Shown here in pieces: positions 5,213-59,515 of a stretch of 64,000 nt of DNA (positions are counted from its first letter, which is position 1; every line of letters starts with the position of its first letter). The DNA comes from Methylobacillus sp. (GTDB lineage Bacteria > Pseudomonadota > Gammaproteobacteria > Burkholderiales > Burkholderiaceae_C). Location of the stretch: the NCBI GenBank assembly GCA_018607835.1, contig JABBAS010000001.1, positions 2,197 to 66,196 on the forward strand, in the 5' to 3' direction. Made by a program: the position numbers and the translations under genes. Below the pieces are notes generated by a model, which saw only the letters and a list, made by a program, of their open reading frames with translations, did not search any database and was not told the DNA's origin.

Positions 5213-6235
<1,023 letters not shown>

Positions 6236-6277
6236 TCATTAATTCAAATTACAGCCAGCCAGTTGCGACCACCGACA

Positions 6278-8308
6278 TCAGCCACGAAGCACTTTTTCAA
6301 CCGTATCTGCCACGTTCTTTTCGGTAAAGCCGAAGTGCGCAAACAAGGCGGGAGCCGGCGCTGACTCACCGAAGGTATCCAAACCGACGACCGCAGCGCA
6401 ACCGTACTTCCACCAGCCATCCGTGCTGCCCATCTCCACCGCAACGCGGGGTAGGCCCTTGGGCAAAACAGACAACTTATACGCCACCGTCTGGCGATCG
6501 AACGTGGTGGTGCTGGGCATAGACACCACACGCACAGCAATACCGCGCTGCGCCAACACGCCTTGCGCTTTCAATGCCAGCGCGACCTCGGACCCTGTCG
6601 CCACAATCACCGCTTGCGCTTTCTTACGCAACCCCACCTCGCTGGGCTCGGCGAGCACATACGCGCCCTTGCTGATTTCGTCTAGGGCCAACTTAGGGCT
6701 GTATGGCAAGTTTTGACGCGACAGCAGCAACGCGGATGGCCGCGTTGTGTTTTGCAACGCAGACGCCCATGCGACCGCCGTCTCTGCCGTGTCCGCTGGG
6801 CGCCACACGTCTAGGTTCGGAATCAGCCGCAGGCTGGCGGCATGCTCAATAGATTGGTGTGTCGGGCCATCTTCACCCAAACCGATGGAGTCGTGCGTAA
6901 AGACATGCACCACGCGCTTCTTCATGAGAGCGGCCATACGGATGGCATTGCGGCTGTAATCGCTAAACGTCAGAAAGGTGCCGCCGTAAGGGATGTAACC
7001 ACCGTGCAACGCAACGCCGTTCATGATGGCGGCCATACCAAACTCACGAACGCCGTAATTGATGTGGCGCCCGCCCACCCCTTCAGCGGTGTTGCTCACG
7101 GCACCCGCCGCGTCCACGCGCAGGTTGGGAGTCGACGGTGTATTGGTGAGGTTAGAGCCGGTTAAGTCGGCGGAGCCGCCCAACATCTCCGGCAATGCCG
7201 CGGTGAAAAAGCCCAATGCAATTTGCGAGGCCTTGCGCGACGCAACGGTCTCGGCCTTGGTGTCCGCAGCCACAATGGCGTCAAACGCGATTTGCTGGAA
7301 ATTAGCGGGTAAGTCACCCTTCATCCGTCGCAGCAACTCCGACGCCAACGCGGGATGTGCGGCTTGATACGCTGCAAAACGAGTGCTCCAGCTGGCTTGG
7401 GCATCGGCACCCGTCGCCACCGCGCTCCAATCGTCATACACAGCGGCGGGAATCTCAAATGGTGCATGGTCCCAACCGAGCGCTGCACGTGTCAGCGCTA
7501 TTTCCTCAGGGCCCAGCGGCTCGCCGTGCGCCTTCGCGGTGTTGGCACGGTTAGGTGAACCCTTGCCAATCGCGGTTTTACAAACAATCAAGGTGGGCTT
7601 GTCCGCACTGTTCTTGGCAGCAGCAATCGCTTGGTCAACGGCATGGACGTCATGGCCATCAATGGGGCCAATCACTTGCCAACCGTAAGCCTTGAAGCGT
7701 GCTGGGGTGTCATCAACAAACCACGGGGCAACCTGACCGTCAATGGAGATGCCGTTGTCGTCGTACAGCGCGATCAGCTTGTTTAGTTTCCAAGCACCGG
7801 CCAACGCGCTGGCCTCGTGGCTGATGCCTTCCATCAAACAGCCATCGCCCAAGAAGACGTAGGTTTGATGGTCGACCACCTGATGCCCGGCGCGATTAAA
7901 TTCGTTGGCAAGTAATTTTTCAGCAAGCGCCATACCTACGGCGTTGGTCAAGCCTTGGCCCAATGGGCCGGTGGTCGTCTCTATGCCCGGCGTCACGTCC
8001 ACCTCCGGGTGGCCCGGTGTCTTGCTGTGCAATTTGCGGAAGTTTTTGAGCTCGTCTATGGATAAATCGTAACCCGTGAGGTGCAACAGGCTGTAGATCA
8101 GCATCGACCCATGGCCGTTGGAAAGTACAAACCGATCACGGTCCACCCAATGCGGGTCTTTTGGGTTGTGCTTTAAATGCTTAGACCACAGCGCAACCGC
8201 CATGTCAGCCATGCCCATAGGGGCGCCGGGATGACCCGAGTTGGCTTGTTGTACAGCGTCCATCGCCAATGCACGAATTGCATTGGCCATATTGGTGGTG
8301 TTGGCCAT
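6278..8308 (-). CDS. tkt: transketolase
   Basis: [27 protein letters not shown] and [15 protein letters not shown] motifs. Confidence 0.95.
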
Positions 8309-35571: not shown

Positions 35572-35629
35572 TGTGGATAACTTTGTTTTATCGCTATACT
35601 CATCACTCATTTTTCGATAGCTATCCACA
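35572..35629. promoter_or_regulatory. DnaA boxes upstream of dnaA
   Basis: TGTGGATAA at 35572-35580 (perfect, reverse) and CTATCCACA at 35621-35629 (1 mismatch). Confidence 0.75.
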
Positions 35630-51848: not shown

Positions 51849-51890
51849 ATCACACTTAAAAACGACGTTTCCGTAAACAGAACACATTTT

Positions 51891-51917
51891 AAAAGCACCT
51901 TATGGTGCTTTTTTTTG
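51891..51917 (+). terminator. rho-independent terminator
   Basis: AAAAGCACC TTAT GGTGCTTTTTTTT. Confidence 0.87.
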
Positions 51918-51924
51918 TTGGTAA

Positions 51925-52200
51925 CACTGTGCATAAAAAACCAATAACTAGGACGTTATCCACAGCGCTTGCCTGCGTTCTAAAGTTGTTACATCTTAAG
52001 CAGCGGTGGAAAAGCCACTTTATCACCTAGTTATAGGCTACATAAGCTTATGATTTTTAATGATTTATTTCTGTTATCAACAGAAAATGCTGTCCCTTAC
52101 TACTACTACTATTTATAAATAAAGAAACTAAGATAAGAGGGGACAAGCTGATCATCGTAGCGTTATCTAAGTACAGGTTGTGATGCCTGTGGAGACTGTT
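51925..52200. other. oriC: predicted oriC with basal unwinding element
   Basis: DnaA boxes TGTGCATAA (51928-51936), TTATCCACA (51956-51964), TTATCAACA (52074-52082, 1 mismatch); spacer GCTGTCCC; CTACTACTACTA (52100-52111) then TTTATAAATAAAG; intergenic; apparent skew switch. Confidence 0.8.
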
Positions 52201-52235
52201 AAGATCTGGCATCTATCCTGTTTAAAGACGTTATC

Positions 52236-53006
52236 GTGCCAAAGCCATCCAGCGAAAATTTCTGTTTTGATATAAAAAGCAGTTATTTATCAATCGTTAA
52301 TTTAGTCTTTCAGACCGTAGATGTGCCGCTTATTGCTGCTGATTTGGATAGACGATTTGGCGATGTCGCTGATTTTTTTGATGACGATGCGGTATCGATC
52401 GATTTGACGGCCCTTGCTCTGTCTGATGTTTCCTCAGTTGATTGGGTTGCTTTACTCGCCTTGCTTAGAAAATATCGTATGCACCCCGTCGCTGTGCGTG
52501 GTGTCGGGCCAGATGATCGTGCGATGATTCAGTCTCTCGGATTGGTAATTCAAGAGACACCGTCCCAAGTGACGTCAGCGATAGCGAGTGGTGCATCCGA
52601 TAGTGCGGTCGGTGGGACAGTATCAGCGATCGACGCCTCCACAACCGAGCCTGCGCTTTTAGGTGCATTGGTTATTGATAAGCCTTTGCGATCGGGGCAG
52701 CGTGTATATGCCAAAGGCCGTGACTTGGTTATGTTGGCTATGGTCAATGCCGGTGCTGAGGTGATCGCTGACGGCCATATCCACGTCTACGCGCCATTGC
52801 GGGGCAGAGCCATCGCGGGCGCGCGGGGTAACCAAGAGGCACGTATTTTTGCGCTTGGTTTTTCGCCTGAGTTGATTTCAATTGCAGGTGTTTATCAAAG
52901 CATCGATGGTGATTTACCTAAAGGGGTCGAATCTCAGGTAGCCGTGGCATCTTTAGAGGTTTCTGAGAGTGGTGAACGTCTTATTTACAAGCCAATCAAC
53001 CGTTAA
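52236..53006 (+). CDS. minC: septum site-determining protein MinC
   Basis: C-terminal [45 protein letters not shown]; followed by minDE; GTG start. Confidence 0.92.
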
Positions 53007-53073: not shown

Positions 53074-53889
53074 ATGACCAAAGTTGTTGTTGTCACGTCC
53101 GGTAAGGGCGGGGTAGGAAAGACCACGACCAGTGCTAGTTTTTCAGCGGGGCTTGCATTACGTGGCTTTAAGACAGCAGTTATTGACTTTGATGTTGGCT
53201 TGCGCAACCTTGACCTCATCATGGGGTGTGAGCGCCGGGTTGTTTATGACTTGATTAACGTGATTCAGGGTGAAGCGACCTTAAATCAGGCGCTTATAAA
53301 AGATAAGCAATGTGATAACTTGTTTGTGTTGGCGGCATCTCAAACGCGTGACAAAGAAGCCCTAACCAAAGAGGGTGTTGAAAAGGTATTGACTGATCTC
53401 AGCGCAATGGGGTTCGAATACATTGTTTGTGACTCGCCAGCGGGTATAGAGACAGGTGCGTTATTGGCGATGCACTTTGCAGATGAGGCCTTGGTGGTAA
53501 CCAATCCAGAAGTCTCGTCGGTCCGTGACTCAGATCGCATTTTGGGTATGTTGAGCTCAAAGACCAAACGTGCCATTGACGGTTCGGATCCTATAAAAGA
53601 ATTTCTGTTGATCACGCGCTACAACCCGGCCCGCGTAGAAGAGGGGCAGATGTTATCGTTAGACGATATTAAGGATATTTTGCGGATCCCATTGATTGGG
53701 GTAATACCAGAGTCAGAAACGGTTTTGCAGGCGTCGAACCAGGGCTTACCAGCGGTTCACTTGACGGGAAGTGATGTCTCGGAAGCCTACAAAGATGTGA
53801 TTGATCGCTTTTTGGGTGAAGAGAAATCAATGCGGTTTGTCGATGTTCAAAAATCGAGCTTGTTCAAGCGCTTGTTCGGTCGGGGGTAA
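53074..53889 (+). CDS. minD: septum site-determining ATPase MinD
   Basis: [19 protein letters not shown]-terminal amphipathic helix [10 protein letters not shown]. Confidence 0.97.
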
Positions 53890-53893
53890 GCAG

Positions 53894-54148
53894 ATGTCCT
53901 TTTTAAATTTCTTCTTAGGTGAAAAGAAAAAGAGTGCAAGTTTAGCTAAAGAGCGGTTACAAATTATTTTGGCGCATGAGCGAGGGGATCGGAGCCCTGA
54001 ACCCGACTTTCTTCCCGCGCTACAAAAAGACCTGTTGGCTGTGATTTCGAAATACATCAAAATTAACGCTGAGGACATCAAGGTGCATCTTGACCGTGAC
54101 GCGACGATGGAAGTGCTAGAGGTCAAGATTGAGCTCCCAGATCGCTGA
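53894..54148 (+). CDS. minE: cell division topological specificity factor MinE
   Basis: [31 protein letters not shown]; start at Met32 of the track ORF. Confidence 0.95.
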
Positions 54149-54303: not shown

Positions 54304-56349
54304 ATGCGTTACCCCGAAAATTTTGATGTGATTGTGGTCGGTGGCGGTCATGCTGGCTGCGAAGCGGCGTTGGCTAGCGCGAGAGCAGGGGCTAAAACAC
54401 TGCTGTTGACACACAATATTGAAACCTTAGGCCAAATGAGCTGCAACCCCTCTATTGGCGGGATCGGTAAGGGCCATTTGGTAAAAGAAATCGATGCCTT
54501 GGGCGGTGCTATGGCGTTGGCAACCGATGAGGCGGGGATTCAATTTCGCACGCTGAATGGGTCTAAAGGACCGGCTGTTAGGGCAACGCGTGCTCAAGCA
54601 GATCGGGTGCTATACAAGGCCGCCATTCGGCGCATGTTGGAAAACCAAGAAAACCTTCAGATTTTTCAACAGTCAGTTGAAGACTTATTGGTGCAGGGTG
54701 ATCGTGTCATTGGTGCGGTAACACAGCTAGGATTGCATTTTCATGCAAGTACAGTGGTGTTAACGGCAGGTACATTTTTAGACGGCAAAATTCACGTCGG
54801 TCTTGAGAGTTATTCGGGCGGCCGCGCGGGTGACCCGCCGTCGGTGGGTTTATCGGGCCGGTTAAAGGAGCTGAAGTTGCCGCAAGGGCGCCTTAAGACG
54901 GGAACCCCGCCGAGGTTGGACGGTAGAACGATTGATTTTTCTAAATGCCAACCACAGCCTGGGGATGGCATGCCAGGGGGAACGATTGAGGGTGGCGGCG
55001 TGCCCGTACTCAGTTATTTGGGTACAGCGGCAATGCACCCCAGACAAATACCTTGCTGGATTACCCATACAAATCTAAAAACCCACGACATTATCCGCAG
55101 TGGTTTTGATCGCAGTCCTATGTTTACTGGGAAGATCGAGGGTGTAGGACCGCGTTATTGCCCTAGTGTTGAAGACAAAATTAGCCGTTTTGCGGACAAG
55201 GACAGCCACCAGATCTTTTTGGAGCCCGAGGGGTTGACGACGCATGAGGTCTATCCCAACGGCATTTCAACCAGTTTACCCTTTGACATTCAGTATGCGC
55301 TGGTGAGGTCTATCAACGGTTTGGAGAATGCGCAGATCGTTAGGCCGGGCTATGCGATTGAATACGATTACTTTGACCCACGCGCATTGAAGGCTAGTTT
55401 TGAAACCAAAGCGATCCACGGGCTGTTTTTTGCAGGGCAGATTAATGGAACAACGGGTTATGAAGAGGCGGGCGCGCAAGGTTTGTTTGCGGGCTTAAAC
55501 GCGGCGCTACAGGCACGCGGGGATGCACCGTGGACACCCGGGAGAGATCAGGCGTATTTGGGTGTGTTGGTTGATGACCTCGTGACCAAAGGTGTAACAG
55601 AGCCGTATCGTATGTTTACCAGTCGTGCTGAATTTCGCCTGCAACTTCGAGAAGACAATGCTGATATGCGGCTAACGGAGGTCGGTCGGTCTTTAGGCCT
55701 TGTGGATGATTTTCGCTGGGACGCCTTTAACCGCAAGCGGGATGCTGTTTCACGTGAAACTGAACGATTGCGGTCGGTATGGGTCAACGCAAAAAACCTT
55801 GGGGCAGATGAGGCAACCCGGGTCTTTGGGAAGCCTCTCGAGAGAGAACAGAGCCTCGCGGATTTATTGCGTCGACCCGGTGTGACATACGCAGACCTGA
55901 TGGGTTTGGATGGCGGACGTTTTGATATCCTTGCTTTGGTGGCGGCACCTGTTTCACGTGAAACAGGTGGTGTCGATCGTGCGGAAAACGAGGGGCCTGT
56001 CAGCGTGCATCCACTTGTTTGGAGCGAAGCACACGAGGAATTTTTGAAGCATGCTGTTGTCGAGCAAATTGAAATCAGCCTCAAATATCAAGGCTATATA
56101 GATAGGCAAAAAGACCAAATCGATCGCGCAGCCTACTACGAGAACCTAGCGTTACCCGAGGATTTTGATTACGCGTGCATCGATGCGCTAGGGTTTGAGG
56201 TGCGTCACAAATTACAGGCGCAGCGACCCGAGACCCTTGGTCAAGCATCACGCATTTCCGGGGTGACCCCGGCGGCTATTTCTGTTTTGTTGGTTCACCT
56301 GAAGCGCGCGGGCCATAAGCGCTTTTTAGAGACGCCGGAGGCGGCGTGA
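54304..56349 (+). CDS. mnmG: tRNA uridine-5-carboxymethylaminomethyl modification enzyme MnmG
   Basis: [45 protein letters not shown]. Confidence 0.97.
55746..55761. promoter_or_regulatory. parS: parS site (15/16)
   Basis: TGTTTCACGTGAAACT inside mnmG. Confidence 0.88.
55946..55969. promoter_or_regulatory. parS: parS site (16/16), core of a perfect 24-bp palindrome
   Basis: CACCTGTTTCACGTGAAACAGGTG inside mnmG; parS core 55950-55965. Confidence 0.95.
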
Positions 56350-57059
56350 CTACGGGGCAACCCCTGTCGGTTGCGAGTATTGCCGCCGGGGCTGAGGCGG
56401 TGGGTGTGGCCTTGTCTGACCTACAGGCGGAGGCACTTTTGCAGTATGCCGAGCTGCTTCTAAAGTGGAATAAGGTCTACAACCTGACCTCCCTGCGCGA
56501 CCCGCGCGAGGTGTTGACGCTGCACTTAATTGATAGCCTGTCTGGTGTGGCCGCTCTCAGACGGGCGATCGCTGGTCGGGAACCGAGTGGACCAACGGGG
56601 TGCTTCTCTGTGATGGACGTTGGTTCAGGGGGTGGGCTTCCAGGGGTGGTCTTGGCCGTTGCGTGCCCAGAGCTTCATGTCACCTGCGTTGATACGGTAG
56701 CAAAGAAAGCCGCCTTCATACAGCAGGTGGCTGCACAGTTACCCCGCGCGGCGCTGGCTGGCCGGTTGGTTGCGAAACACGCAAGAGTGGAGTCCGTGCA
56801 GGCGACGTTTGATGTGATCACGTCGCGTGCCTTCGCTTCCTTGTCAGACTTTGCGCTGTGGTCTCGGCAGGCGTTGGGTGAAGGTGGCTTATGGATGGCA
56901 ATGAAGGGCGTCAAGCCTGAGGCGGAAATTGCTGCTTTACCGCCCTGGGCAGAGGCGTTTCACGTGGAACACTTTTCCGTTGAGGGGCTTGGGGCGCAGC
57001 GATGCATTGTTTGGATGCGAGACCGGGGTCCTCAAGTGGACGTGCCGGTGACAAATTAG
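56346..57059 (+). CDS. rsmG: 16S rRNA (guanine527-N7)-methyltransferase
   Basis: [33 protein letters not shown] motifs. Confidence 0.95.
56956..56971. promoter_or_regulatory. parS: degenerate parS site inside rsmG
   Basis: CGTTTCACGTGGAACA; reverse strand TGTTCCACGTGAAACG, one mismatch to TGTTNCACGTGAAACA. Confidence 0.7.
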
Positions 57060-57136
57060 ATCGCGTAAACTGAGGCCTTGTGTCACCCCGGTTCTGGAGT
57101 GGATGTTCCTTGTTTTCTAAAAAAGAAGATGGCTGT

Positions 57137-57910
57137 ATGGCAAAGATATTTTGCATAGCAAATCAGAAGGGCGGTGTGGGTAAAACCACAACAACCGTCA
57201 ACCTCTCGGCGGGATTGGCAAAAATTGGCCAGCGCGTGCTGATGATTGATCTAGATCCACAAGGGAATGCCACGATGGGGTCGGGTGTTGATAAGCGGAC
57301 GCTGACGCACACGGTCTACGACGTCTTATTGGGTGATGTCAGCATGGCGGATGCTTGCGTGCAGGCCGATGCTTGCGGTTACGCGGTTCTGGGGGCTAAC
57401 CGTGAGTTGGCGGGAGCAGAGGTTGAGCTCGTCAGTGTTACCAACCGTGAGCAACGCCTAAAGGACGCGATCGCCACTGTCGACAGCCAATATGACTTCG
57501 TTTTGATTGACTGCCCACCATCACTGAATATGCTGACGCTAAATGGCCTATGCGCGGCTCATGGTGTCGTCGTACCCATGCAATGTGAATACTTCGCTTT
57601 GGAAGGCCTTAGCGATCTGGTTAATACGATTAAGCAGGTGCACGCCAATTTGAACCCTGAATTGTCGCTCATTGGGTTGTTGCGCGTCATGTTTGATCCT
57701 CGGATTACCTTACAGCAGCAGGTCAGTGAACAAATTAAGGCACATTTTGGCGACAAGGTTTTCGAGGCGGTTATTCCTCGCAATGTGCGCCTCGCAGAGG
57801 CGCCTAGTTACGGGTTGCCTGGCGTTATCTTTGACCCTGCTGCCAAAGGCTCGATGGCATTCGTTGCCTTTGCGGAAGAAATGGTGTTGCGTATGGAGCG
57901 ACTTCAATAA
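57137..57910 (+). CDS. parA: chromosome partitioning ATPase ParA
   Basis: [36 protein letters not shown]. Confidence 0.96.
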   Translation: MAKIFCIANQKGGVGKTTTTVNLSAGLAKIGQRVLMIDLDPQGNATMGSGVDKRTLTHTVYDVLLGDVSMADACVQADACGYAVLGANRELAGAEVELVSVTNREQRLKDAIATVDSQYDFVLIDCPPSLNMLTLNGLCAAHGVVVPMQCEYFALEGLSDLVNTIKQVHANLNPELSLIGLLRVMFDPRITLQQQVSEQIKAHFGDKVFEAVIPRNVRLAEAPSYGLPGVIFDPAAKGSMAFVAFAEEMVLRMERLQ

Positions 57911-58564: not shown

Positions 58565-59515
58565 ATGGCATTAAAAAAACCAAAGGGGCTTGGGCGTGGT
58601 CTGGAAGCCTTATTAGGCCCTAGCGTTGACGAATGGGCCGGAAGCGCTGCGGACGCCTTGCCTAACACGGCGAACTTGACCCAATTGCGTGCCGGCATGT
58701 ATCAGCCGAGACAACATATGGACGAGGGCGCGCTGTATGAGCTGGCGGAGAGCATCAAGTCACAAGGCATCATGCAGCCGATATTGGTTAGACCTGTGGA
58801 CGCGAACGGGCGCCATCAGCCGTTAACCGGGCGTCCTGGCGCAGCGCAGCAGTACGAGATCATTGCCGGCGAACGCCGTTCGCGTGCGGCGAAACTGGCG
58901 GGCTTGACGGAGGTGCCTGTTCTCATCCGTGATGTCTCCGATGACAAAGCCGCGATCATGTCGCTCATCGAGAACATGCAGCGTGAAGACTTAAACCCCC
59001 TCGAGGAGGCGCAAGGCTTACAGCGCCTAATTCGTGAGTTTGGCCTTACCCACGAAGACGCTGCGCAGGCCGTGGGGCGCTCGCGTAGTGCCGCGAGTAA
59101 TTTGCTGCGGCTTTTAAATTTGGCAGACCAGGTGCAGACGATGTTGACTGCGGGTGATCTCGATATGGGCCATGCCCGTGCGTTGCTTGCCTTGGATAAA
59201 ACGACACAGATCACGGCGGCGAATCAGGTTATCGCCAAGAAAATGTCTGTGCGTGAGACCGAGTCACTGGTGAAAAAGTTGAGTGCGGAATTCAATTTGG
59301 TTGCGGTGAGCCCAAAAGTAGATAAGTCGCGCGATACCAAGCGCATAGAAGAAGAGCTTTCAGACCTATTCGCTGCCACCGTGGAGGTGCGCATAAAGAA
59401 GCGCGTTAAGCGTGGCTCACGGACGGAAGAGCAGGGCGAACTGGCGATTTCGTTCGCGTCTCTTGCCGAGCTGAACGGCCTGATTGACCGTTTGCGTGGC
59501 CGCTCCGTAGAGTAG
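58565..59515 (+). CDS. parB: chromosome partitioning protein ParB
   Basis: KKPKGLGRGLEALLG; AGERRSRAAKLAGL; ENMQREDLNPLEEA; HTH region. Confidence 0.96.
   Translation: MALKKPKGLGRGLEALLGPSVDEWAGSAADALPNTANLTQLRAGMYQPRQHMDEGALYELAESIKSQGIMQPILVRPVDANGRHQPLTGRPGAAQQYEIIAGERRSRAAKLAGLTEVPVLIRDVSDDKAAIMSLIENMQREDLNPLEEAQGLQRLIREFGLTHEDAAQAVGRSRSAASNLLRLLNLADQVQTMLTAGDLDMGHARALLALDKTTQITAANQVIAKKMSVRETESLVKKLSAEFNLVAVSPKVDKSRDTKRIEEELSDLFAATVEVRIKKRVKRGSRTEEQGELAISFASLAELNGLIDRLRGRSVE

Follow-up and report, generated by a model that had tools for sequence, protein, structure and literature searches.

In E. coli, the chromosomal replication origin oriC does not adjoin dnaA but is found in the mnmG-rsmG region, and its unwinding element consists of 13-mers. 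Its position has been described as gidA-mioC (PMC10225481). The basal unwinding system (BUS) with its DnaA-trios was described for B. subtilis and is widespread in bacteria (PMC6669920, PMC8287927). It is defined by a DnaA box no more than about 16 bp away from the first trio and a trio consensus of 3′-GAT-5′ (PMC8287927), and in B. subtilis a DnaA filament on the trios was shown to separate the strands (PMC6669920). Within the Burkholderiales, putative double origins have been suggested for Ralstonia pickettii 12D, one of them predicted beside hemE, far from dnaA (PMC4403523). We found no report of a minC-linked origin in the open-licence literature.

We analysed a 64,000 nt-long stretch of Methylobacillus DNA (the window) and identified a module in the gap upstream of minC that is predicted, with a probability of about 0.93, to be the chromosomal replication origin oriC, and that from its sequence would belong to the well-known BUS type. 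The nearest relatives with names are mostly Comamonadaceae and place the organism in the Burkholderiales. The conserved unit extends from 51927 to 52125 on the plus strand and is preceded by an intrinsic terminator-like stem-loop of an upstream LTXXQ-family gene (stem at 51891-51912, plus strand, followed by a T-tail), which had been noted before and is present as a pattern. Two distal, divergent DnaA boxes open the module, box 1, TGTGCATAA (TTATGCACA on the minus strand; 51928-51936, minus), and box 2, TTATCCACA (51956-51964, plus), of which the ATCCACA is almost invariant in an alignment of ten modules. A conserved AAAGTTGTT element (51982-51990, plus), recognized from the conserved columns of alignment A1, is perhaps a weak DnaA site or the site of a protein. 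Box 3, TTATCAACA (52074-52082, plus), is proximal to the trios and carries one mismatch, which is a weak point for the reading as oriC. It is followed by a 14-bp spacer (52083-52096, plus) ending in GCTGTCCC, the GC-rich part of the unwinding system, by the DnaA-trios TTA CTA CTA CTA CTA (52097-52111, plus; definition according to PMC8287927), with TTTATAAATAAAGAAAC directly after them, and by an A+T-rich stretch that is predicted to melt (52112-52140, plus). On the other strand the trios read 3′-AAT-GAT-GAT-GAT-GAT-5′. With TTA as the first trio, box 3 is located 14 bp from the trios, consistent with the distance in the BUS definition (with CTA as the first, 17 bp), and the run holds five motifs, four of them GAT, where at least three trios with a central A are expected and 3′-GAT-5′ is favoured. 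Beyond the conserved module, TGTGGAGAC (52188-52196) has two mismatches to the DnaA box and is probably meaningless because of this outlying position.

The sequence-only reading had listed these four boxes, and all of them are in place; the trio run, which constitutes the unwinding element, had been overlooked. It had also described the gap as AT-rich, and the AT content indeed amounts to 56-72% per 100-bp window, with a peak of 72% at 52050-52149, compared with 41-57% in the minC coding sequence from 52300 on. The minC gap, intergenic and rich in A+T, thus presents clustered DnaA boxes, as is typical of an oriC; an Rfam search of the gap gave no match.

The assignment draws on how the module is built, on the fact that it is conserved as one unit and present only once in the genome, and on the strand-asymmetry switch at its position. 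For DnaA binding, filament loading and melting, B. subtilis serves as the analogue. By this analogy, the divergent distal boxes (51928 and 51956) would bind DnaA and raise its local concentration, while DnaA on the proximal box (52074) would seed an ATP-DnaA filament that extends across the 14-bp spacer onto the trios (52097-52111). The filament would stretch one strand and melt the A+T-rich DNA beyond the trios, where helicases would be loaded and from where two forks would depart.

Perfect TTATNCACA boxes occur 37 times in the 2.42 Mb genome (76 contigs), compared with 26 occurrences of the reversed control. The two perfect boxes of the minC gap are 28 bp apart, and by our estimate about 0.03 such pairs are expected per genome, so that a chance pair is unlikely. 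The box-plus-trio pattern occurs a single time in the 2.42 Mb and was absent from 100 shuffles of the window; in its strict form it was found at 7 places in 6 of 151 genomes of the family, the reversed control pattern at none. One other close pair of perfect boxes exists in the genome, between the gene of a DegP-like protease and lepA (G000:C9:186099-186118). It shows neither a skew switch nor a profile match and was rejected as an origin on these grounds; it may titrate DnaA or have a regulatory role.

The region upstream of minC is laid out alike in two further genomes of the genus, G001 (complete) and G004. Ten modules from seven genera could be aligned over about 200 bp, and in all of them the trios follow the first box at a distance of 170-175 bp. 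We built a profile (R2) from the other genera, leaving out the genus of the window to avoid circularity, which matched the window only at 51,927-52,125 (E = 1e-16) and, in G001 and G004, the homologous positions. No further R2 match was obtained over 255 kb, which covered the dnaA regions as well as the box pair on C9. The full profile (R1), which we used for the family-wide search, gave one match across the whole genome of the window and detected the module in 98 of the 101 genera of the family; beyond the family, weaker matches were present in 14 of 58 genomes.

The cumulative GC skew reaches its minimum at 52,109, for the window as well as for the 86 kb contig of the 76-contig assembly on which the curve of this genome was drawn, and since the curve hardly changes from 51 to 52.5 kb the switch is placed to about 1 kb and no finer. 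Along the contig the cumulative curve is level after dnaA (35.6 kb), falls steadily from 41 kb to the gap and is far lower at the minC gap than at dnaA. The active origin might instead reside near dnaA, either at rpmH-dnaA or between dnaA and dnaN, with the minC gap serving to titrate DnaA or as a regulatory site; this is very improbable. The dnaA promoter does hold a perfect box and a box with one mismatch (35572-35580, minus, and 35621-35629, plus, the latter mismatched), and the dnaA-dnaN gap houses the module in 42 of the 98 genera. However, in this genome as in G001 and G004, neither side of dnaA has the module or trios, and none of these three genomes has a skew minimum at dnaA. The sequence-only reading had named a minimum at rpmH-dnaA as the outcome that would speak against it, and had reported boxes in the dnaA promoter but no unwinding element that it could find, which agrees with the lack of trios and of a profile match there. 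Its suggestion of an autoregulatory role for the boxes in the dnaA promoter is a plausible inference.

Genes diverge around the minC gap, and local minima can be misleading (PMC4403523), so that the turn of the skew might be due to gene orientation or a recent rearrangement only, with the origin on another contig. Because of this divergence we measured fourfold-degenerate third positions. The skew of plus-strand genes was −0.163 to the left of the gap and +0.101 to its right, and gene direction alone therefore does not explain the flip. In G001, samples from across the chromosome were negative between 640 and 1,700 kb, apart from one at 1,240 kb, and those between 1,880 kb and 520 kb, counted round the chromosome, were positive, in agreement with the switch. 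Within a contiguous stretch around the origin the minimum is at 1,808,872, which puts it about 0.5 kb away from the homologous pair of boxes and 34 kb away from dnaA. G004 gives a concordant picture, and both minima are within 0.6 kb of the homologous pair. Together with the single profile match in the genome, these results leave hardly any credit to an artefact of the skew, and strand asymmetry in the contig, in G001 and G004 and at the fourfold sites places the switch at the module. The earlier proposal that the minC gap contains the active origin is hence well founded, given the minimum at 52,109, the R2 match at this place only and the position of the G001 and G004 homologues at skew minima.

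Among the modules of 20 relatives, the local 20-kb skew turned from a negative to a positive value in only 8, which supports the relatives' matches as active origins in part and weighs against the oriC reading; at control points the figures were 1 of 20 and 5 of 42. None of the six dnaA-gap modules showed such a local switch. In G101, the chromosome-wide skew samples fit the module as the origin, except for one sample.

Downstream of the module follow minC (52236-53006, plus; TIGR01222, E = 5e-44), minD (53074-53889, plus; TIGR01968, E = 6e-101), minE (53894-54148, plus; named by position and ORF translation) and mnmG (gidA; 54304-56349, plus; TIGR00136). Three sites on the plus strand, a parS-like site with one mismatch to TGTTTCACGTGAAACA (55746-55761), a perfect parS, TGTTTCACGTGAAACA (55950-55965), and a parS-like site with two mismatches (56956-56971), are located 3.6-4.9 kb from the module within mnmG and rsmG, and are followed by parA (57080-57910; ParA-type matches) and parB (58565-59515, plus; ParB_N, HTH_ParB and ParB_C). 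Such an arrangement of parS, parA and parB is as expected for an origin domain. The interior of parA contains three one-mismatch DnaA boxes inside 500 bp (57101-57650).

By analogy with E. coli, the origin had been assigned to the mnmG side of the ancestral cluster, and this part of the sequence-only reading has to be corrected. Direct adjacency to mnmG is not found here, as minCDE intervenes. In G140 and G028, minC is apart from mnmG and the module goes with minC, which makes the analogy unsuitable, and the module is in the dnaA-dnaN gap in 42 of 98 genera. We also considered mnmG as an anchor, but rejected it since in 80 named relatives few box clusters precede mnmG.

Placement, which we classed relative to dnaA and minD, differs widely across the family. 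All 42 modules in the dnaA-dnaN gap are on the dnaA strand. In 13 of the 98 genera the module immediately precedes minC (12 of these share the orientation), in two it is downstream of minDE, and the other 41 have it at other places, in many cases tens of kb away from dnaA or on a different draft contig. The minC-linked group, with its shared orientation, might suggest that the boxes chiefly serve DnaA control of the min operon, tying division-site control to initiation without any origin. We consider this very improbable, as the module is apart from minC in most genera, simple promoter control would leave the trios and the A+T-rich element without a role, and the skew switches at the module. 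Both functions, origin and min regulation, could exist side by side.

On a DnaA tree the minC-linked location was clustered (8 changes compared with 14.5 in shuffles), with a support too weak to count moves. More than one profile match was obtained in 29 of the 98 genomes (e.g., G136, G009, G008, G025, G015 and G068), often within a few kb, and these may represent bipartite origins, duplicates or decayed copies. It is conceivable, if rather doubtful, that the oriC of this family is a module of ~200 bp that was repeatedly moved or copied, with two or three working copies on some chromosomes. In one genome (G163:C21; L175/L203, about 450-560 and 3348), two modules are 2.9 kb apart on one contig, and the CTA trio run of one of them has grown to roughly twenty copies. 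Roughly one in five genomes of the family lacks a strong MinD match, and in many of these (e.g., G006, G007, G017 and G067) the module is between dnaA and dnaN; G007, without a minD match in the genome, carries it there (L195, about 6050-6350) as in B. subtilis.

The analysis provides a precise candidate oriC for a genus of the Burkholderiales in which the expectation of an origin "next to dnaA" would lead to the wrong place, and a sequence profile that can also be used on draft genomes and yields candidate origins for 98 of the family's 101 genera. The data support two points that go beyond the routine, namely that a prediction contrary to the usual dnaA rule holds and that a conserved module occurs in differing neighbourhoods within one family. 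The diversity in placement of this candidate origin may well be the more interesting part. The same module in varied gene neighbourhoods forms a natural series on how an essential origin changes place, and the family is therefore suited to the study of origin relocation. The minC-adjacent position in several lineages raises, without proving it, a link between initiation and division-site control.

The organization of the minC-gap module resembles the B. subtilis incC BUS (boxes 6/7 and DnaA-trios) in having a box, a short GC-containing spacer, 3′-GAT-5′ trios, A+T-rich DNA and distal boxes upstream; however, it is located before minC and not in dnaA-dnaN, and has three clear boxes only, with a divergent distal pair. 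Like E. coli oriC, it is away from dnaA and in the mnmG-rsmG region, but minCDE lies between the module and mnmG, the module of relatives goes with minC, and a trio-type element takes the place of the 13-mers. With R. pickettii 12D it shares a predicted origin distant from dnaA in a member of the Burkholderiales, whereas here a single module is present in the genome and its neighbour is minC. The dnaA-dnaN gap modules of the same family (e.g., G007, G017 and G092) match it in ~200 bp of homology, order and spacing, and differ in their neighbours, as they follow dnaA at 20-150 bp and share its strand.
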